A stretch of 46,457 nt of DNA from Fibrobacteria bacterium (GTDB lineage Bacteria > Fibrobacterota > Fibrobacteria > UBA11236), in contig JANYDA010000019.1 in the NCBI GenBank assembly GCA_025360005.1, positions 1 to 46,457 of the forward strand, given 5' to 3'. The position numbers and the translations under genes are program-made. The notes under the pieces were generated by a model. It was not told the DNA's origin. It did not search any database and saw only the letters and a list, made by a program, of their open reading frames with translations. Below are positions 19,556 through 41,366 of this stretch, in pieces (within the stretch, counting starts at the first letter, position 1; the number at the start of each line of letters is the position of its first letter).

Positions 19556-20668
19556 TCAGGTCTCTCCCTGAGCGGTAATCTCGATATTGTCCCAGGACTC
19601 GTTGTCGGCAGGAGCGACGCCCTTGCCGGCCTTGGCATCGGCCTGACCGGAAGCGGCGGTTTGCCGGATCTTGGCTTCGATCTCCTGGGCCATGGCCTTA
19701 TTTTCCTTGAGGAAATCCCGGGCCTTTTCTCTGCCCTGCCCCAGGCGATCCTTGCCGTAGGAGAACCAGGTGCCGCTTTTCTGGATGATTTCCATTTCCG
19801 TGGCCATGTCCAAAAGACTGCCTTCCCTGGAGATGCCGGTGCCATAGAGGATATCGAACTCGCATTGCTTGAAGGGCGCAGCTACTTTGTTCTTGACCAC
19901 CTTCACCTTGGTACGATTGCCGATGACCTCTTCGCCTTCCTTAAGCGAAGCGATCTTGCGGATGTCGAGGCGCACGGAGGCGTAGAACTTGAGGGCATTA
20001 CCGCCGGTGGTGGTTTCCGGATTGCCGAACATGACGCCGATCTTCATGCGCAATTGGTTGATGAATATGAGGCAGCAATGGGAGCGGTTCAGAATACCGG
20101 TAAGTTTGCGCAAGGCCTGGGACATCAGACGGGCCTGGAGGCCCATATGCGAATCCCCCATTTCACCGTTGATCTCGGCTTGCGGCACCAGGGCCGCCAC
20201 CGAATCCACCACGATAAGATCGATGGCATTGCTGCGAACCAAAGTCTCGCAAATGTCCAGGGCCTGTTCGCCCGTATCGGGCTGGGAGACCAATAGATTG
20301 TCGATATCCACTCCGAGCTTGCGGGCATAGAGCGCATCGAAGGCATGCTCGGCATCGATGAACGCGGCCACGCCTCCGGCCTTTTGGCATTCTGCGATGG
20401 CATGCAAGGTCAGCGTAGTCTTGCCGGAGGATTCCGGTCCAAAAATCTCGACGATCCGGCCCTTGGGCAAACCGCCGACGCCAAGCGTCATGTCTAACTG
20501 GATGCATCCCGTACTGATGACAGGGATGTCCGCGATTTCCTGGTTGCCCAAGGTCATGATGGAACCCTTGCCGTGATTCTTTTCGATGAGTGCCACGCAG
20601 ATATCGATAGCCCTTTTCTTGCTGGCGGCTTCCTCGGAAACCGGAGGGGTATTTTTTTTGACGGACAT
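19556..20668 (-). CDS. recA: Recombinase A
   Basis: RecA coats single-stranded DNA, drives homologous strand exchange and triggers LexA self-cleavage. The protein has 370 residues. The Walker A motif is GPESSGKTT at 77-85, Walker B is in [17 protein letters not shown], and [22 protein letters not shown] is the conserved L2-type region. The acidic, Gly-rich tail is normal for the family. AAGGAGT stands a few bases before the ATG. The gene follows cinA on the same strand but has its own SOS-type promoter in the gap. No U-tract terminator is visible behind it. Confidence 0.98.
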
Positions 20669-20705
20669 AAGAGACTCCTTATGGAAGGGAGGGGTTGAAA
20701 GAAGA

Positions 20706-20738
20706 ATATAATTTACTGCTCATTTGTGCAAGGGCAAT
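20706..20738 (-). promoter_or_regulatory. recA promoter with LexA (SOS) box
   Basis: TGCTCATTTGTGCA at 20718-20731 (plus strand) fits TGCNC-N4-GTGCA, the LexA box I recall for Fibrobacter succinogenes. On the recA strand TTGCCC (20738-20733) and TAAATT (20716-20711) are 16 nt apart, and the box fills that spacer almost exactly. An alternative pair, TTGCAC and TATATT, is 15 nt apart. Repressor bound here would block RNA polymerase. The leader to the recA ATG is about 40 nt. Confidence 0.75.
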
Positions 20739-20749
20739 TATGAATATGT

Positions 20750-22012
20750 TCACTTTTGCTCCAATTGCCCTGAAATCGCCAATCTGAGCTGATTGAGAGC
20801 GGAATAAGCCGAACGCCAGCGGATGGTATTCCTATCCCCGCGGAGCTTCAACTGCTTGGCGACGCAAAAGTCCTTGGAAGCCACGGCAATCCAAACCGTG
20901 CCAACGGGCTTTTCCGTGGTGCCTCCGGTGGGGCCTGCGATGCCGGTGATGGCGGCCGCATAAGTGGCGCCGGTCCTCCCCAGGCATCCGCGTGCCATCG
21001 CCATGGCGGTAGCCTCCGAAACCGCGCCGTGGGACTCCAGGATCCCGGCATCCACACCCAGCAAATCGGTTTTGGCGGGATTGGAATAAGTCAAGAAGCC
21101 CTTATGGAAAACCGCCGAGCTGCCGGGAACTTCCGTGATCAGGAATCCCAGGCCTCCACCAGTACAGGACTCGGCCACGGAAACGGTGGCCCGCTCGGCA
21201 AGCAACAGTTTGACTACGGCTTGGGGCAAGGCGGAGCCTTCGCTATCGACAATTGCTTCAGGGGGAATGGCGGCGAGCATTTTCCGCCAAAGTAAATCGA
21301 GTTCCGAAGCGCGGCGATCCCGATCGGACGGAGCGCACAGGCACGACAAGGTGAGGCGCACGCCTTTTTCCCCCGGAAGACTGGAGAAGCGGAAGTGGGC
21401 CGGAATTCCAAGGGAACCGAAAGCTTCGCGCTGCGCGCTTTCCGACCAGGACCAGGTCCATAGGGCTTTTTCCAAAAGCACGCCGTCCCCTTGCAGGCCG
21501 GGCATGAGATGCAAGCGCACCATCGCGTCCAGTTCCGAGGGAACTCCGGGGAAAGCATAGCCGGTGACGCCGCGCGCCTGGAAGGCGAATCCGCATGCCG
21601 TACCTGCGGGGTTACGTAACGCGCGTGTTCCCTCAGGGATGGATGCCTGGACCATTTGGCCCCAAGGCAAGTCCGACGCGGGCTTGCCCAGGAATTCCGA
21701 GAGCCAGGCCAAAGCCTCCGGGCTTGCGGCGACCTTGAGCCCAAGGAAGGCCGCCACTGCTTGGCGGGTCAGATCGTCCTGGGTGGGCCCCAGGCCTCCA
21801 GTTAGGATGAGCATATCGATTTCGCCGAGCGCCTGCGGCCCCGTGGCCCAGTCCAGAGCGCGGACGATGGCGTCTTCTTCATCCCCGATTACCAGGTTGA
21901 ACGGGATCCGATGTCCCAAAGGGGCCAGTAGGCGGGCCAACTCGAATTGATTCGAGTTCAGGATTTTGCCTCCGAGCAACTCATCCCCGATATTGATGAT
22001 TCCGACTCTCAT
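20750..22012 (-). CDS. cinA: CinA-like protein with molybdopterin-binding and nicotinamide-nucleotide amidase domains
   Basis: CinA proteins join an N-terminal MoCF-type domain (ADP-ribose/NMN pyrophosphatase-like activity in some) to a C-terminal PncC domain that deamidates nicotinamide mononucleotide for NAD salvage. The protein has 420 residues. The N-terminal part shows VGIINIGDELLGGKILNSN and LILTGGLGPTQDDLT. The C-terminal part shows VSVAESCTGGGLGFLITEVP, GFLTYSNPAKTDLLGV and ITGIAGPTGGTTEKPVGTVW. The open frame starts earlier, but MRVGIINIGDE at 22012 is the family start. The cinA-recA order is conserved in many bacteria. Confidence 0.93.
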   Translation of the reverse strand: MRVGIINIGDELLGGKILNSNQFELARLLAPLGHRIPFNLVIGDEEDAIVRALDWATGPQALGEIDMLILTGGLGPTQDDLTRQAVAAFLGLKVAASPEALAWLSEFLGKPASDLPWGQMVQASIPEGTRALRNPAGTACGFAFQARGVTGYAFPGVPSELDAMVRLHLMPGLQGDGVLLEKALWTWSWSESAQREAFGSLGIPAHFRFSSLPGEKGVRLTLSCLCAPSDRDRRASELDLLWRKMLAAIPPEAIVDSEGSALPQAVVKLLLAERATVSVAESCTGGGLGFLITEVPGSSAVFHKGFLTYSNPAKTDLLGVDAGILESHGAVSEATAMAMARGCLGRTGATYAAAITGIAGPTGGTTEKPVGTVWIAVASKDFCVAKQLKLRGDRNTIRWRSAYSALNQLRLAISGQLEQK

Positions 22013-22120
22013 GGAAGAAAATATACCATCGGCACCAGGACAGAAACCGTCCCGCATGAGCGATAGCCCGTTCCGGAAGCGCTCCAGTTCTTTGTACTTT
22101 TTCCGCTCGGAAGCCACGCC

Positions 22121-23629: not shown

Positions 23630-26600
23630 TTAAATGCCGGCGAGCGCGGACTTTTCCGCCACCAGAATGCTCCCGTCGGGTCCCAGCATGGGCTTGGTGG
23701 GGTCGCCCTTGACGCCCAAGAAGACATAGACTTTTATGCTGCTGTTGGCATCGAATGCAGTCGTGAGTTTGCCGTCGAATACCACCGATTGCGGGTTGAC
23801 TTGGGCGGGCACGGCTCCGCTGGAAGAGGCAACCATCACCTTGTTCTGCTTGGCGTTCAACAGGTTCTTAAGATTATCCAGCGATCCCGTATAGATCTCC
23901 GGACGTCCGGTATCGGACGGGGGATTGTTCACGATGGGAGTGGAATCCTTGGGGGGATTGTTCACCACCGGGGTGGAATCCTTGGGAGGGTTGTTCGGCA
24001 CCGCGCCACTATCGGCGGGACGCAGGACTACCAAGGGCATGCCTTCCTTTATCAGCAGGCTCAAGGAATCCCCATTGGCGGAGAGCAACAGGTACTTGCT
24101 GGCGCCGGCCGCGTCCATGATGGAAACGACACGGGCGTTGGGTTCAACCGCCATGGAAGCGGGATTGACGTCCACCTTTCCGGCCAGATTTAACATGCTG
24201 TCTTTCACCAATCCCACCCGGTTGTTGGAGGTGGACAAAGCGATCTTCAGGAGGTCGAGAGCACCTTTGTACAGAGGGGGCGTTTTGAACCCGCCGGTAA
24301 CGGGACCGCAGGGACCTTTAGCGGGATCGCAGGCCGGCTGCGGACAGGTCGACTTGGCCGGATCGCAAGCGACCTTGTTGGTATCGACCGGGCAAGGGCC
24401 TTTACCGGGATCGCAAGCCGGGTTTACCGGGCTGCCGTTGACGGGGCAAACCATGGTGGAGTGGCCATAGTCGGGCGAGGCGGGACGGATTTCCGCTACG
24501 AAGACGTTGGCCCGGATGACGCCTTGCGCGTCGAAAGCCTTGTCGAGACGGTTAGGCGCGCCGGCCCTGAATTGATCCTCCATCAGCAGGACCAGATTGC
24601 TCCCGCTGAGGCTGACGCTCATGGAATCCGCGCTGTAGGCAGCCTTGGCGGCGGGAGATTCGTCCACGGCCGGGACGGCTTCCGGCACCAACACCACCTG
24701 ACCGCACATGGGAGACTTGGCGTCCATGACGTGGGCTGAATCGTTCATGACCCGGTACACGCGGTTGTTGATGGAGAGGTAGAAGAACTCGTTGGGTTTG
24801 ACTCCCGCGTTGGCGACGAAAGTCCTGAAGGAAGCCGCTCCGGACATGAAGGAGCGGAGGAACGAGGTAACCGGCGTGGTACCCGAATTGCCGCAAGGGC
24901 CCTTGGACGGATCGCAAGCGGGGTTGGGATTGGTGGTACAGGGGCCTTTGGCCGGATCGCAGGCGGGGTTGGGATTGGTGGTGCAAGGGCCTTTAGCGGG
25001 GTCGCAAGAGGGGGTATTGTTCACCGGCTGGGCGGCGATGCCGTTGCCCTGGGTATCCTGGAAAATCCATCCCTTGAACTTCCCCGTGATTCCGTCCGCG
25101 GCGGGAGTGATATCGGCCTTGGCGGCTTTGCCGTTGATCTGTCCGGGTATGCTCTTGTGCACGCCCGACGAATCGCTTTCCTGGAAGAAGTGGCCGTCCA
25201 CGATCCAGGATCCGTTGTTGTCATAGGCGATGCGTCCGCCCACTTCGGCGCGCTTGGTGCTGTTGTTGGCACCGCTGGATTTCTTCTCGCCGAAAAACTC
25301 GTAGCTGCCGTCGGACTGGGCGCGGATGCTGGGGTTCTCAATGACGGCGACGGTATCGCCGAATTCGTCCACCAAGCTAACCTTACCGTCCGCCAGGATG
25401 ATGAACGCGCCTTCCTTGGTGCCGGAAGGAGGCAAACGATAGGTGATGGCGTTGTTCACTACCGTATTGACGGGATTGTTCACCGCGGTACCGGTATTGC
25501 CGCCGCCGCTGGCCGGCAGGTACCTGCTCACGTCTTCGCCGCGGCCGCTGGCCGCGAACTGGCCGACATTGGGTCCTCCGCCGAAATTGGTCGAGGTTTT
25601 GGCGGGAGCCGGGATCATGTCGATCGGACCCATCAACAGCGAGGAGATGGCGTCGTAATGGCCGCGCAGCAAAAGAGCCCTGCCGGCGTCAGGGCCGTTC
25701 TTGAGCAAGGTGACGGGAACGTAGACTTCGCCGGCCGCCTCATTGAAACTGGTCCGGACGGAATCGCTCAGGGTATCTTTGCCGATCACGGCGGTGTAGA
25801 AGACCCAAAGCGCCTTTGAGGTGTCCGTGAAGAGCTTGAAGGTGATGCTGTTCAGATTGCTTCCCATCTGGAACTTGCCCGCAAAGACGCCGGACGGGGC
25901 GCTGGCGCGCGGACGCGTACCGGGGTTGTTCTTGGGATCGTTGGGGTTGAATCCGGACAGCATTTCGATGTCATCCGGGAAGCCGTCGCCATCGGTATCC
26001 TGCCAGACGATTCCCATGGCGATCAACTTGGCGATTTCCGCCTTCACGCCGGGGGCATCGGCCTTCTTGGTCACCAGGCTATCTGTTCCCTGGGGATCCA
26101 GCATGGCTTCCAGGAAATCCGCCAGACCGTCATTATCGGTATCGGTGCGGAAATCGGGATAGGAGTTGCGGTCCCGCGGATCCGTCTTGTACTTGGCTTC
26201 GATGGCGTCCGGAACTCCGTCCAGATCCATATCGCTGAAGCTCCCGTTGTTGTTGCCGTTAGGCTGGGTGCTCACGAATTTCTGCTGGTTGTTTTCCAAG
26301 GTGTTGAACGCCGCTCCGGAGGGAAATCCCTTGCAAGCGAAGTAACCGCGGTTGGGTCCGAAATCGGATTCCGCGAAATAACGATCGGGGCTGTAGCCGT
26401 TGGCCAGGAACTGCACGGCGGAAGTGTCCTTCACGCCGATGACCTTCCAATTGTAAACGCCGCCGAAGCCGCTCTCGGTCTTGTACAGGGTGGTCAGGGC
26501 ATTGTCGAAAATGGTGCGATCCCAACCGGGCAGTTTCAAATCCTGCACGCGGCGGAGTATGGAGGCGGCGTTATTGCCTTCCGGACCTCCGGCGCTGTTC

Positions 26601-28984
26601 AATACCAAGGTTTCCTCGTTGCCTTTGGTGTTGGACGCTTTGACGAAGATCAACGCGCCATAGGGAGCCCGGCCGAAGCAGAACTTGGGATCTTCGGCGA
26701 TGCCGACCAGGTAACCGCCGATGCTGTCGAGGGCCGGGCCCTTGAACTTGAAGGTGACCTTGCCGTCGTCCCCTTGGGCGTTCTCCTTGAGGGGGGTGGT
26801 GAGGGTGATGGGCATGATCTGCTTGATCTTGAAGTCCTTGGTATCCACGGCCTTGTTGAAGTCGTCCTTGTTGGTCTGCTTGGAAGGCGAGACGATGGAC
26901 ATGACCAGCCATTTGGAACCGTCGTTCACGAGGGTGAACTTCAGGATCTGGAAGGACGTGTCCGTGAGGCTCCCGCCGCAGGCGCGGCCGATATCGCCGA
27001 AATTGACGCGGTTGTATTTCTCGTAAGAGATCATCTTGACGGCCAAGCGGGCGGTGTCGCCGCTCAGGGTCACGGAAGGATCCACGTTGAATTCTTCGCG
27101 GCCTTCGAACTTGATGGCTTCCAAAACCACAGTCGAGGTCTGCTTAAGCTGATCGGCCATGAAGCGCTGATCGTTCTTGGCGGCATCCATGTTGACCGGG
27201 CCTTTGAACCTGGACAGATCCGGGCCGAAGCCGTATTTCTTGCCGGTGGATTTGATGGTGAAGCGGGGCCCGGTCGGATCCCAGGTGAGATCGGTGGCCA
27301 TGATTTCCTTCTTGTCCTTATCGAAGACGCGCGGGGATTGGCCGGGATTGACGTAGGCGTCCACCCAGATCTGGTCGTCCGCGGTTCCGCCTTCCGCGCC
27401 CACTTTCCAGCGGGCGCCGCCGTCCTTGCAGGCCTCGGGGGAGTTGTCGAACACGGGTCCGTCGAACCCGGCTGCCAGCGCCTGCTTGTCGCCCACCTCG
27501 GCGCGGATCTTATCCAGGAACTCGGACTTGGACTTCATGCCGCCGTCTTCGTCGTAGAGGCGGAAGTTGGGATGGAACGAAGTCGCGAACCGGCCGATGT
27601 CTCCGGAAACGTATGCGTCGAAGGCGGCTTCCACCGCCAGGGCCACATCCTTTTCACGGCCGGAATTATCCTTGGCCGCGCCCTGGAAATCCTTGATGGT
27701 GAAAGTGAAGGAAAAGTCGCTCGCCAGGCCGGCCCCGGCCTGATCCGTTACCGTGGCGGGCAAGGTCAGCGTGTAGGTGGTGCCGACCGTCAGGGCGTCC
27801 TTGTGGATGAAGACGGCGCGCGCGCCGGATACTTCCCAATAGCCCGTGACCGCAGGTTCGATCTTGGCGAATTTGATCAGGGAGAAAGCTTCGACGGGGC
27901 GGTTGAAGCTCACTCCGGGATTCTGGATGGGTTTGATGGTCTCCTTATCGGCGGGGACGCTCGCAACCACGGCGAACTTGATGGCAGCCAATTCCGCAGC
28001 GGCCACGGTCACGAAGGTGGCCTTGTATTCCTTGTCGAGGGGATTCTTGGCGAGATCCTTCAAACCGGTGGGAATGATAAGACCGTATTGGACACCGGTT
28101 GTCAAAGCCGCCATGGACAAGGTAGCCACCTTGCTATCGCCGCTCCAGCTGACTCCCACGTTCTTGACCGTGTCCGCCAGCACCATGGAGGTGGACGTGT
28201 TGGTGGTATCGATCTTGCCTAGCACCACCCCTTTGATCGATTCGCGGTTCATGGGTTCCGAGAAGGTGATATTGATCTTGGCGTTCTTGTCCGGCACCGA
28301 GCCGACCAGGAAGATGCCGTCCGAGTTGGCGGTGTTGGCATCGTAGACGCCGGAAACCGTGGGAGCGGTCACGTCCTCGATGGCGGTGGCGGTATCCATG
28401 TGGACGATGGTATCCGCTTTGGGATTCATGTTGGGAATCCCCGTCGTCACCAATTGGAAAGTCTCCAAATCGAGATGGACGGCGAATCCGAAGTACTTGC
28501 CTTCCTTGAGGATGCAAGTGTAATTACCCAGGGAATCCGTGGTGAGCGTGGTATCCGCGGCCGTGGTGGGCTTCAACGCGTCGAAGATGAGGATGGTGGC
28601 GCCCGTTAACGGGATTTGATCCTTCACCAACAGGCGACGCTCCCCGCCGGCGTTGCTGGCCTGCTTGAGGAGGCCTTTGGCGACGGTCTTGCCTTCCCCC
28701 GTCAGGAAGCCGGTGATCACGCCCTTGCCTTTGCCGGCATTTTGTTTGACGAGCGAATCCAGTTTGCTCACGACCTTCTTGACATCGGGATTATCGGTGT
28801 TGCCGGGCGCTACCACGGTGGCGGCCTTGCCCGCCTTTTGCGAACATCCCATGATTGCCAGGGTCAGCGCGCACAACGCCGCGACCGTAGATTTGCCGAT
28901 GAGGCGCAAGGCTCGATTATGGGGTTTGGACCCCATAAACATTGCCCCGGATTGTTTGCTGCGATTCATTTCCGAGTTCTCCAT
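23630..28984 (-). CDS. Giant multi-domain surface lipoprotein with CDPxKGPC repeats
   Basis: The protein has 1784 residues. The signal peptide ends in the lipobox AIMGC (Cys47). Regions in order: a carboxypeptidase-regulatory-like beta domain (about 88-205, GATILIFDALKP); two Big_5/SbsA-type Ig-like domains (about 207-430, INITFSEPMNRESI); an NTF2-like region (about 445-730); thrombospondin type 3 calcium loops (about 916-1015, DMDLDGVPDAIE, DTDNDGLADFLE, DTDGDGFPDDIE); and a beta-rich region. Three CDPxKGPC motifs follow near 1326-1364, and three more CDPxKxxC motifs near 1522-1559. A Pro/Asn-rich run of PPKDST repeats (about 1661-1690) and a final beta domain end the protein. AAGGA lies before ATG 28984. 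The architecture suggests an adhesin or surface scaffold; the ligand is unknown. Confidence 0.82.
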   Translation of the reverse strand: MENSEMNRSKQSGAMFMGSKPHNRALRLIGKSTVAALCALTLAIMGCSQKAGKAATVVAPGNTDNPDVKKVVSKLDSLVKQNAGKGKGVITGFLTGEGKTVAKGLLKQASNAGGERRLLVKDQIPLTGATILIFDALKPTTAADTTLTTDSLGNYTCILKEGKYFGFAVHLDLETFQLVTTGIPNMNPKADTIVHMDTATAIEDVTAPTVSGVYDANTANSDGIFLVGSVPDKNAKINITFSEPMNRESIKGVVLGKIDTTNTSTSMVLADTVKNVGVSWSGDSKVATLSMAALTTGVQYGLIIPTGLKDLAKNPLDKEYKATFVTVAAAELAAIKFAVVASVPADKETIKPIQNPGVSFNRPVEAFSLIKFAKIEPAVTGYWEVSGARAVFIHKDALTVGTTYTLTLPATVTDQAGAGLASDFSFTFTIKDFQGAAKDNSGREKDVALAVEAAFDAYVSGDIGRFATSFHPNFRLYDEDGGMKSKSEFLDKIRAEVGDKQALAAGFDGPVFDNSPEACKDGGARWKVGAEGGTADDQIWVDAYVNPGQSPRVFDKDKKEIMATDLTWDPTGPRFTIKSTGKKYGFGPDLSRFKGPVNMDAAKNDQRFMADQLKQTSTVVLEAIKFEGREEFNVDPSVTLSGDTARLAVKMISYEKYNRVNFGDIGRACGGSLTDTSFQILKFTLVNDGSKWLVMSIVSPSKQTNKDDFNKAVDTKDFKIKQIMPITLTTPLKENAQGDDGKVTFKFKGPALDSIGGYLVGIAEDPKFCFGRAPYGALIFVKASNTKGNEETLVLNSAGGPEGNNAASILRRVQDLKLPGWDRTIFDNALTTLYKTESGFGGVYNWKVIGVKDTSAVQFLANGYSPDRYFAESDFGPNRGYFACKGFPSGAAFNTLENNQQKFVSTQPNGNNNGSFSDMDLDGVPDAIEAKYKTDPRDRNSYPDFRTDTDNDGLADFLEAMLDPQGTDSLVTKKADAPGVKAEIAKLIAMGIVWQDTDGDGFPDDIEMLSGFNPNDPKNNPGTRPRASAPSGVFAGKFQMGSNLNSITFKLFTDTSKALWVFYTAVIGKDTLSDSVRTSFNEAAGEVYVPVTLLKNGPDAGRALLLRGHYDAISSLLMGPIDMIPAPAKTSTNFGGGPNVGQFAASGRGEDVSRYLPASGGGNTGTAVNNPVNTVVNNAITYRLPPSGTKEGAFIILADGKVSLVDEFGDTVAVIENPSIRAQSDGSYEFFGEKKSSGANNSTKRAEVGGRIAYDNNGSWIVDGHFFQESDSSGVHKSIPGQINGKAAKADITPAADGITGKFKGWIFQDTQGNGIAAQPVNNTPSCDPAKGPCTTNPNPACDPAKGPCTTNPNPACDPSKGPCGNSGTTPVTSFLRSFMSGAASFRTFVANAGVKPNEFFYLSINNRVYRVMNDSAHVMDAKSPMCGQVVLVPEAVPAVDESPAAKAAYSADSMSVSLSGSNLVLLMEDQFRAGAPNRLDKAFDAQGVIRANVFVAEIRPASPDYGHSTMVCPVNGSPVNPACDPGKGPCPVDTNKVACDPAKSTCPQPACDPAKGPCGPVTGGFKTPPLYKGALDLLKIALSTSNNRVGLVKDSMLNLAGKVDVNPASMAVEPNARVVSIMDAAGASKYLLLSANGDSLSLLIKEGMPLVVLRPADSGAVPNNPPKDSTPVVNNPPKDSTPIVNNPPSDTGRPEIYTGSLDNLKNLLNAKQNKVMVASSSGAVPAQVNPQSVVFDGKLTTAFDANSSIKVYVFLGVKGDPTKPMLGPDGSILVAEKSALAGI
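24307..24420 (-). repeat. Second cluster of CDPxKxxC-coding repeats
   Basis: Three motif copies lie here: CDPGKGPC, CDPAKSTC and CDPAKGPC, joined by short Pro/Val/Asp linkers. This cluster is more diverged than the upstream one. It encodes residues about 1522-1559 of the giant lipoprotein. Confidence 0.8.
24892..25008 (-). repeat. First cluster of CDPAKGPC-coding tandem repeats (45-nt unit)
   Basis: Three tandem copies of CDPAKGPC or CDPSKGPC occur. The first two are joined by the identical linker TTNPNPA, giving a 15-residue (45-nt) unit that is nearly identical in DNA. Near-identity suggests recent expansion or slippage. It encodes residues about 1326-1364 of the giant lipoprotein. Confidence 0.85.
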
Positions 28985-39359: not shown

Positions 39360-41366
39360 TCATCCCCCCTCCAATTTACGGATCCTGTCCCGGAAATGGG
39401 CCGCCTTCTCGAATTCCAAATTTGCGGCGGCCTCCCGCATCTCCTTGCGTAAGGCTTCGATATCGGGGTTTCCCTTACGCTGGGCCCCGCCCTTCTTTTC
39501 CTCCGCCGCATAAGCCGCGTCTTCTTCCGCCACCATCAAAGCTTTCATGTCGATACTGTAGTCCACATCGGGCACCAGTTGCAGGTGTTTATGGATTTCC
39601 CTTTGTACGCCGCGCGGCACCATGCCGGTGCGCAAGTTGGATTCCTCCTGCTTGGCCCTGCGCTTGTCGGTTTCGTCCATGGCATAACGCATGCTCGCGG
39701 TGATCTGATCCGCATACAGAATTACGCGGCCATTGAGATGGCGGGCGGCGCGGCCGATGGTCTGGATCAAGGATCGATTGCTGCGGAGGAAGCCTTCCTT
39801 ATCCGCGTCCAGGATCACGACCAGGGAGACCTCGGGCAAATCCAGCCCTTCTCTTAAGAGATTGATCCCCACCAGAATATCGATCGTCCCCTCGCGGAGA
39901 TTCTTGATGATTTCGCTGCGAGCCAAGGTATCCGTATCGGAATGCATATAGCTCACTTTGAGACCGGCCTGCTGCAGGTATTCGGTGAGATCCTCGGCGC
40001 TGCGTTTGGTCAAGGTAGTGATGAGGACGCGTTCTTTCCGAGGCAGACGCAAAGCGATTTCATTGAGGATATCGTCGATCTGGCCCTTGGTGGTGCGCAC
40101 TTCCACTTGCGGATCGAGGAGACCGGTGGGACGGATGATCTGCTCCACCACCACGCCGCCCGATTTGGCCAATTCATAGTCGGCGGGAGTGGCGGAAACG
40201 AAAAGGGTCTGGGGTATCTTGGCTTCGAATTCGGCGAACTTGAGCGGACGGTTATCCAGGGCGCAGGGCAGGCGGAAACCGTAATTGACCAGGTTCTCCT
40301 TGCGGGAACGATCGCCGTTGTACATCGCCCCGATTTGCGGCACGGTCACATGCGATTCGTCCAGGATGAGCAGGTAGTCGTCGCCGAAAAAGTCCATCAA
40401 GGTGGAAGGCGGCGTGCCGATAGCGCGGTTTTCCAGGATGCGGGAATAATTCTCCACGCCCGGGCAATGGCCCACTTCCTTCAGCATCTCCATATCGTAC
40501 ATGGTGCGCTGGCTCAGGCGTTGGGCCTCCAGCAACTTGTTTTCGGCCGTGAACTTCTTGAGAGTTTCGTCCAGTTCGTGGCGGATATCCCTGAGCACCC
40601 TATCCATCCCCTGTTCGCTGGTCACGTAATGGCGCGCAGGATAGATGAGCACGCTTTCCAGCTGGGCTTCCTCTTCCCCGGTGAGCAGGTTGATGCGGCG
40701 GATCTTCTCCACCTCGTCCCCGAAGAACTCGAAGCGGTAGGCGAAGTCGTCGTATGCCGGGTGGACCTCGACCACGTCGCCCCGCACGCGGAAGGTGCCG
40801 CGGCGGAAATCGAAGTCGTTGCGGCTGTAATAGATGTCCACGAACTTGCGCAGCAAGTCGTTGCGTTCAATGGTTTCGCCTACCTTGACCTCGACCATCA
40901 TCTTGCGGTATTCGGTAGGGGTGCCCAAGCCGTAAATGCAGGACACGGAGGAAACCACCACCACGTCCTTGCGGGACATCAGCGACATGGTCGCGCGCAA
41001 GCGCAGCTTATCGATCTCATCGTTCTGGCTGGAGTCTTTTTCGATGAAGGTATCGCTGGAGGGCACGTAGGCTTCCGGCTGGTAATAATCGTAGTAGCTG
41101 ACGAAGTACTCCACCGCGTTTTTGGGGAAAAAGGATTTGAACTCTTGGTACAGTTGGGCCGCCAAGGTCTTGTTATGGGAGATGATCAAGGTGGGCTTGG
41201 ACAGTTCCTGGATGATATTGGCCATGGTGAAGGTCTTGCCGGAACCGGTGACCCCCATCAAAGTCTGGAACTTCTCCCCGGCCCGGAAGCCCGCCGTCAA
41301 CTGTTCAATGGCCGCGGGCTGATCGCCGGCAGGGGCGAAGGGGGATTCGAGTCGGAAGATGGACAT
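39360..41366 (-). CDS. uvrB: Excinuclease ABC subunit B
   Basis: UvrB is the damage-verifying helicase-like subunit of nucleotide excision repair, loaded by UvrA and joined by UvrC. The protein has 668 residues. The Walker A motif is GVTGSGKTF (about 39-47). The beta-hairpin that clamps DNA is in VSYYDYYQPEAYVPSSDTFI. Helicase motifs include LLILDESHVTVPQIG, LVGINLLREGLDLPEVSLV and QTIGRAARHLNG. The C-terminal UVR motif for UvrC binding is IEALRKEMREAAANLEFEKA. I see no LexA box like that of recA in the short upstream region. Confidence 0.98.
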   Translation of the reverse strand: MSIFRLESPFAPAGDQPAAIEQLTAGFRAGEKFQTLMGVTGSGKTFTMANIIQELSKPTLIISHNKTLAAQLYQEFKSFFPKNAVEYFVSYYDYYQPEAYVPSSDTFIEKDSSQNDEIDKLRLRATMSLMSRKDVVVVSSVSCIYGLGTPTEYRKMMVEVKVGETIERNDLLRKFVDIYYSRNDFDFRRGTFRVRGDVVEVHPAYDDFAYRFEFFGDEVEKIRRINLLTGEEEAQLESVLIYPARHYVTSEQGMDRVLRDIRHELDETLKKFTAENKLLEAQRLSQRTMYDMEMLKEVGHCPGVENYSRILENRAIGTPPSTLMDFFGDDYLLILDESHVTVPQIGAMYNGDRSRKENLVNYGFRLPCALDNRPLKFAEFEAKIPQTLFVSATPADYELAKSGGVVVEQIIRPTGLLDPQVEVRTTKGQIDDILNEIALRLPRKERVLITTLTKRSAEDLTEYLQQAGLKVSYMHSDTDTLARSEIIKNLREGTIDILVGINLLREGLDLPEVSLVVILDADKEGFLRSNRSLIQTIGRAARHLNGRVILYADQITASMRYAMDETDKRRAKQEESNLRTGMVPRGVQREIHKHLQLVPDVDYSIDMKALMVAEEDAAYAAEEKKGGAQRKGNPDIEALRKEMREAAANLEFEKAAHFRDRIRKLEGG

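Follow-up and report, generated by a model that had tools for sequence, protein, structure and literature searches.

A predicted LexA operator overlapping the recA promoter in a bacterium of the Fibrobacterota

Does the palindrome that lies ahead of recA in this genome place the gene under SOS control, and if so, which promoter would the repressor cover? The window analysed here, a stretch of 46,457 nucleotides from a Fibrobacteria bacterium, carries TGCTCATTTGTGCA on the forward strand at 20717–20730, inside the 81-bp gap between cinA and recA; in the sense of recA, which lies on the reverse strand, the box reads TGCACAAATGAGCA. The forward strand, TGCTC-ATTT-GTGCA, fits letter for letter the 14-bp imperfect palindrome TGCNC-N4-GTGCA, which, in the work of Mazon and colleagues in 2004, is reportedly the LexA box of Fibrobacter succinogenes. 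The preliminary description of this DNA had recognized the sequence and rightly placed it between the two genes, but its coordinates, 20718–20731, were one base off. The features of the region, all on the reverse strand, are these:

19556..20668, reverse strand: recA, 370 amino acids (PF00154, E=1.3e-139; TIGR02012)
20673..20680, reverse strand: recA ribosome-binding site AAGGAGTC, from the sequence
20703..20708, reverse strand: putative −10 element of recA, TATTCT, 17 bp from TTGCAC (TA...T invariant at that spacing in 20 of 20 relatives)
20714..20731, reverse strand: extended LexA operator of recA (predicted), TTGCACAAATGAGCAGTA
20717..20730, reverse strand: LexA operator of recA (predicted from pattern, copy number, matrix score and conservation)
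20726..20731, reverse strand: putative −35 element of recA, TTGCAC, which overlaps the operator's left half-site (TTGC unchanged in all 20 relatives)
20732..20745, reverse strand: A-rich stretch plus GCCC, upstream of the promoter (CAAAAA.GC(C/A)C conserved in the class, from column conservation)
20750..22117, reverse strand: cinA, upstream neighbour of recA on the same strand (PF02464 and PF00994)

A match to the pattern is by itself no proof, because the loose form TGCNC-N4-GNGCA is expected 1.09 times per window after shuffling and shows no enrichment in the 4.98-Mb genome, with 57 occurrences as compared with 66 of the reversed control. As a genome-wide signature, therefore, the literal F. 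succinogenes motif, which had been put forward as something to search for throughout the genome, fails. What exceeds chance is the particular sequence of the box and its position rather than the loose pattern. The exact 14-mer has only two copies in the 4.98 Mb, and the second, at C39:19765, sits in a different promoter, where TTGAAT and TACTAT flank it. Seven gene groups other than recA, taken from five other genomes, supplied the sites for a scoring matrix, so that both recA and the window's own genome were left out. By this matrix the recA box tops the window at 20.3 bits, 9 bits above the runner-up place (11.3 bits); in 30 windows simulated with a first-order Markov model, the highest score was 16.9 bits. 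The other box sites of the genome score 17.3 to 24.7 bits, except the lhr site (12.4 bits) and a half-box at uvrA (15.5 bits).

The box is kept at the identical place ahead of recA in all 20 Fibrobacteria genomes checked, which represent families f1, f3 and f4. In the comparison of these twenty relatives, in each of which the DNA ahead of recA could be read, mean information is 1.44 bits within the box as against 0.70 and 0.64 bits in the flanks. Since the box is intergenic in the window's genus, its conservation there is unexplained by coding constraint. A TTGC(A/T)(C/T) element, either TTGCAC or TTGCTC/TTGCTT, is fused to the box in every relative, its TTGC being invariant, and an equally invariant TA...T hexamer follows 17 bp downstream (TATATT, TAGATT, TATAAT or, as in the window, TATTCT). 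The conserved recA promoter predicted from these columns is TTGCAC-17 bp-TATTCT, with the box overlapping the −35 element; a generic scan found no sigma-70 consensus promoter at recA, so that this assignment derives solely from the comparison. The conserved A-rich stretch farther upstream (20732–20745) is a possible UP element.

The preliminary description had seen a different promoter, in which the box fills the spacer between TTGCCC and TAAATT. These letters are indeed present, at 20732–20737 and 20710–20715, flanking the box with a gap of 16 bp, and a box within the spacer is the layout observed at lexA (TTGACA-17-TATCTT) and at the orthologue of the C39 reading frame in genome G001. Neither hexamer, however, is conserved in the 20 relatives: the TTGCCC position reads ATGCCC in five congeners and GCAC or GCA in other families, and TAAATT varies too, in contrast to TTGC and the TA...T hexamer at 17 bp, which are invariant. 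It is improbable that TTGCCC and TAAATT form the main recA promoter, and the TTGCAC–TATTCT pair is preferred here.

The position of the operator bears also on cinA. The matrix scan found no box upstream of cinA, the best score being 8.4 bits, so that induction of recA only, through its internal promoter, is likely; it is plausible that SOS induction via the recA promoter would leave cinA unraised. The earlier proposal that recA would rise without cinA is thus likely for the internal promoter, but no terminator-like site was found between the two genes in the transcribed direction, and read-through from cinA into recA is possible. In f3 genomes (loci L077, L083, L087, L090, L092) cinA seems to extend at its 3′ end into the operator and promoter of recA.

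The same site is met again ahead of well-known DNA-repair genes in this bacterium and in related genomes, and for this reason the recA palindrome is almost certainly a LexA site. With two or fewer mismatches, TGYACAWWTGWGCAGTA has 9 matches and no control match in the window's own genome, and 58 matches against 5 control matches in six same-genus genomes, counts in which one site may be scored on both strands. The matches in the window's genome precede recA and the following genes:

C8:32778-36089: dnaE2, the second PF07733 gene; box at C8:32762
C8:38055-39248: imuB (PF00817); box at C8:38039
C8:43733: DUF72 gene (Pfam); box at C8:43717
C17:134691: dprA; box at C17:134664
C39:19823: open reading frame of 219 amino acids; box at C39:19765

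The preliminary description had named lexA, uvrA, dnaE2 and imuB as genes where the motif should recur, and all four carry boxes. Those of dnaE2 and imuB are full and stand at the same place in congeners, while those of lexA and uvrA have one good half each. The lexA promoter box, TAATTATTTGTGCA, lies between TTGACA and TATCTT; its right half is conserved in the genus and its left half is degenerate, the f3 genome G011 having TGCCC as its left half. At uvrA, TGCMCAAATWTTCA lies just upstream of a putative −10 element in five of five genus genomes, with a good left half and a weak right half; in all five the variants are TGC(A/C)CAAATTTTCA/TATTCA, i.e. TGC(A/C)CAAAT(T/A)TTCA. A gene for an Lhr-type helicase (on C8 in the window's genome) is preceded by a box in four congeners; the box in the window's genome, TGTACATCCGGGCA, is weaker. 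Some points stand against the LexA reading: the poor left half at lexA, the poor right half at uvrA, and the lack of a box upstream of dinB (C11) and of uvrB. The latter gene (39360–41366 of the window) has a best upstream score of 5.1 bits, unlike uvrA.

Two members of the set are less familiar. The dprA box, between a TTG-type −35 element and TATATT, is conserved in five genus genomes (L116; L108, L112, L168, L174), and would bring a protein of recombination and transformation into the SOS set. The 219-residue reading frame (G000:C39:19765-20482; L017, L134) has orthologues of 200–219 residues (L125, L129, L171, L172, L179), and the box stands in its promoter in six genomes of the genus. It matched no Pfam family; the predicted model is mediocre (pLDDT 70) and resembles most closely, though weakly, the fold of a restriction endonuclease (E=0.028), so that a PD-(D/E)XK-like protein is only a lead. 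One gene assignment and two further candidate boxes were set aside. The reading frame at C8:43733 is not imuA, since Pfam assigns it to DUF72; the match at C49:9931 (TGCACCAATGTGCA) falls within coding sequence and is also present in congeners, fitting coding constraint; and that at C18:14547 (TGCGCGAATGAGCA), at 10.3 bits in the leave-recA-out matrix, is probably due to chance.

The operators occur in three layouts: on the −35 element (recA), in the spacer (lexA, dprA and the C39 reading frame), and on the −10 element (dnaE2, imuB and the DUF72 gene). Those of the last group (C8:32762, 38039 and 43717, with their orthologues) overlap a putative −10 element, TACATT, and end 2–4 nucleotides before the ATG, an arrangement that suggests leaderless messages. 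Beyond the genus, a related pattern, one mismatch being allowed, has 272 matches against 17 controls across 61 genomes. Related sites are, on these counts, class-wide, the genes served outside the genus having been examined for recA and lexA only. In the lexA promoters L016, L058–L067, L072–L074 and L076, a conserved TGNAC-like arm stands a few base pairs before TTGACA. The resulting arrangement of about 30 bp, TGNAC...TTGACA...GTGCA, recurs at lexA in most families, and the arm is possibly a second LexA half-site.

The genome has a single lexA gene (TIGR00498, 202.9 bits). Its product combines the LexA_DNA_bind (PF01726) and S24 (PF00717) domains, and the residues of cleavage and catalysis, Ala111-Gly112, Ser147 and Lys184, are present in the expected motifs. 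As judged from these motifs, the genome encodes a canonical self-cleaving LexA. With the conserved operator, its position and the shared gene set, this single repressor with intact cleavage residues supports the earlier claim of SOS control of recA, and the probability that the recA box is a LexA operator in a Fibrobacterota bacterium is put at about 0.93. In the undamaged cell, a LexA dimer on TTGCACAAATGAGCAG, overlapping the −35 element TTGCAC, would keep RNA polymerase off the recA promoter. Upon DNA damage, RecA on single-stranded DNA would stimulate self-cleavage of LexA, and recA would be induced together with lexA, uvrA, imuB, dnaE2, dprA, the Lhr-type helicase gene and a few other genes that share the operator.

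It is very unlikely that the site, though real, belongs to another regulator (a further S24-type repressor, for instance, or a different winged-helix protein) and that LexA acts elsewhere. The pairing of site and LexA in this genome is deduced, and there is a precedent in the Bacteroidetes, where non-canonical LexA proteins control the same gene set (PMC8565304). Canonical lexA, however, is single-copy here and present in all 61 relatives, with a conserved box in its own promoter, and in Zixibacteria, whose LexA shares the STNGVR recognition helix, TGCACGTTTGAGCA precedes lexA. The probability that the box is a loose palindrome matched by chance, the promoter being AT-rich, is negligible, although the once-per-window expectation and the lack of genome-wide enrichment might have favoured this reading; it is contradicted by the conservation of the box in all 20 relatives, by the SOS gene set that shares it and by its score in the leave-recA-out matrix.

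The Fibrobacter-type box ahead of recA had also been taken as a sign of membership in or near the Fibrobacterota. The genome does belong to this phylum, as indicated by its nearest LexA proteins: the closest named ones are from the Fibrobacteres bacterium MAGs RYN_348 and RYN_349 (94% identity) and nzgw217 (89%), which are same-genus genomes. The box alone does not mark the phylum, since it is met in two Zixibacteria lexA promoters. Throughout family f1 the recognition helix reads SSTNGVR or TSTNGVR, and the two Zixibacteria proteins with the STNGVR helix have TGCACGTTTGAGCA ahead of their genes, so that the association of helix and box extends outside the Fibrobacterota. Among Zixibacteria and Ignavibacteria, the lexA promoters L146, L147, L144, L145 and L150 carry TGCACGTTTGAGCA or TGAACAATTGAGCA. 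In this comparison, confined to the lexA promoter, the layout is like that found here and the Zixibacteria helix is identical, whereas the Ignavibacteria differ in their STFGVK helix and TGAAC half-sites.

The weighted consensus over nine gene groups is C-TGYAC-AWWT-GTGCA-GTA, and CTGYAC-AWWT-GTGCAG may serve as a working consensus in the window's genus. The outer C and G reach 0.78 and 0.85, giving CTG-N10-CAG. Some of the rightward GTA belongs to −10 elements at lexA and dprA and to start codons at dnaE2 and imuB; no such account covers recA and lhr. In the g4 genomes examined, recA has CAC and so lacks the outer G; the same loss is seen at lexA in G011 (CAT), the one such genome read at that gene. 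Compared with the reported F. succinogenes box, the palindrome has the same 14-bp length and half-sites and likewise stands in SOS promoters; the window's genus differs in that its left half is mostly TGTAC, its middle is AWWT and most sites retain the outer C/G pair (CTG...CAG).

The E. coli SOS box, CTG(TA)5CAG (PMC3091678), shares the 16-bp span and the outer CTG and CAG, and the dnaE2 box CTGTACATTTGTGCAG matches it at 12 of 16 positions. It differs in its inner half-sites, which are YAC/GTG here rather than TA/TA, and the recA box, TTGC-N8-GCAG, matches at 9 of 16 positions only; an E. coli-type box of the form CTGT-N8-ACAG was accordingly rejected at recA. The cyanobacterial box, RGTACNNNDGTWCB (PMC3091678), has in common the 14-bp palindromic form and the TAC-N4-GT core, but its outer bases are RG..., as against TG...CA here, where the right half is GTGCA.

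These comparisons hint, without proving it, that the known Fibrobacter motif is derived and has lost the outer C/G pair. It may be suggested, tentatively, that the ancestral Fibrobacterota operator was CTGYAC-N4-GTGCAG, intermediate between the TAC/GTA-type boxes known in other phyla and the CTG-N10-CAG of E. coli, with the F. succinogenes form derived from it and with LexA sitting on the starts of probably leaderless messages for mutagenic polymerases, as at the dnaE2, imuB and DUF72 operators. Mazon and colleagues are said to have proposed in 2004 that the Fibrobacter box was a transitional step towards that of the Gammaproteobacteria, and this proposal becomes testable with natural sequences.

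What emerges is in all likelihood an ordinary SOS switch in a little-studied phylum, new for its lineage; the LexA box of the Fibrobacterota is not known from more than one cultured species. What the analysis contributes is a corrected promoter, a consensus specific to the lineage and a list of genes. The comparison yields an operator consensus and target genes for uncultured families, which the literal published motif fails to find, and it makes SOS control likely for dprA, the Lhr-type helicase gene, the DUF72 gene and one uncharacterised reading frame. Elsewhere in the window, at 23630–28984, lies a gene for a secreted-looking protein of 1784 amino acids with repeated CDPAKGPC segments.
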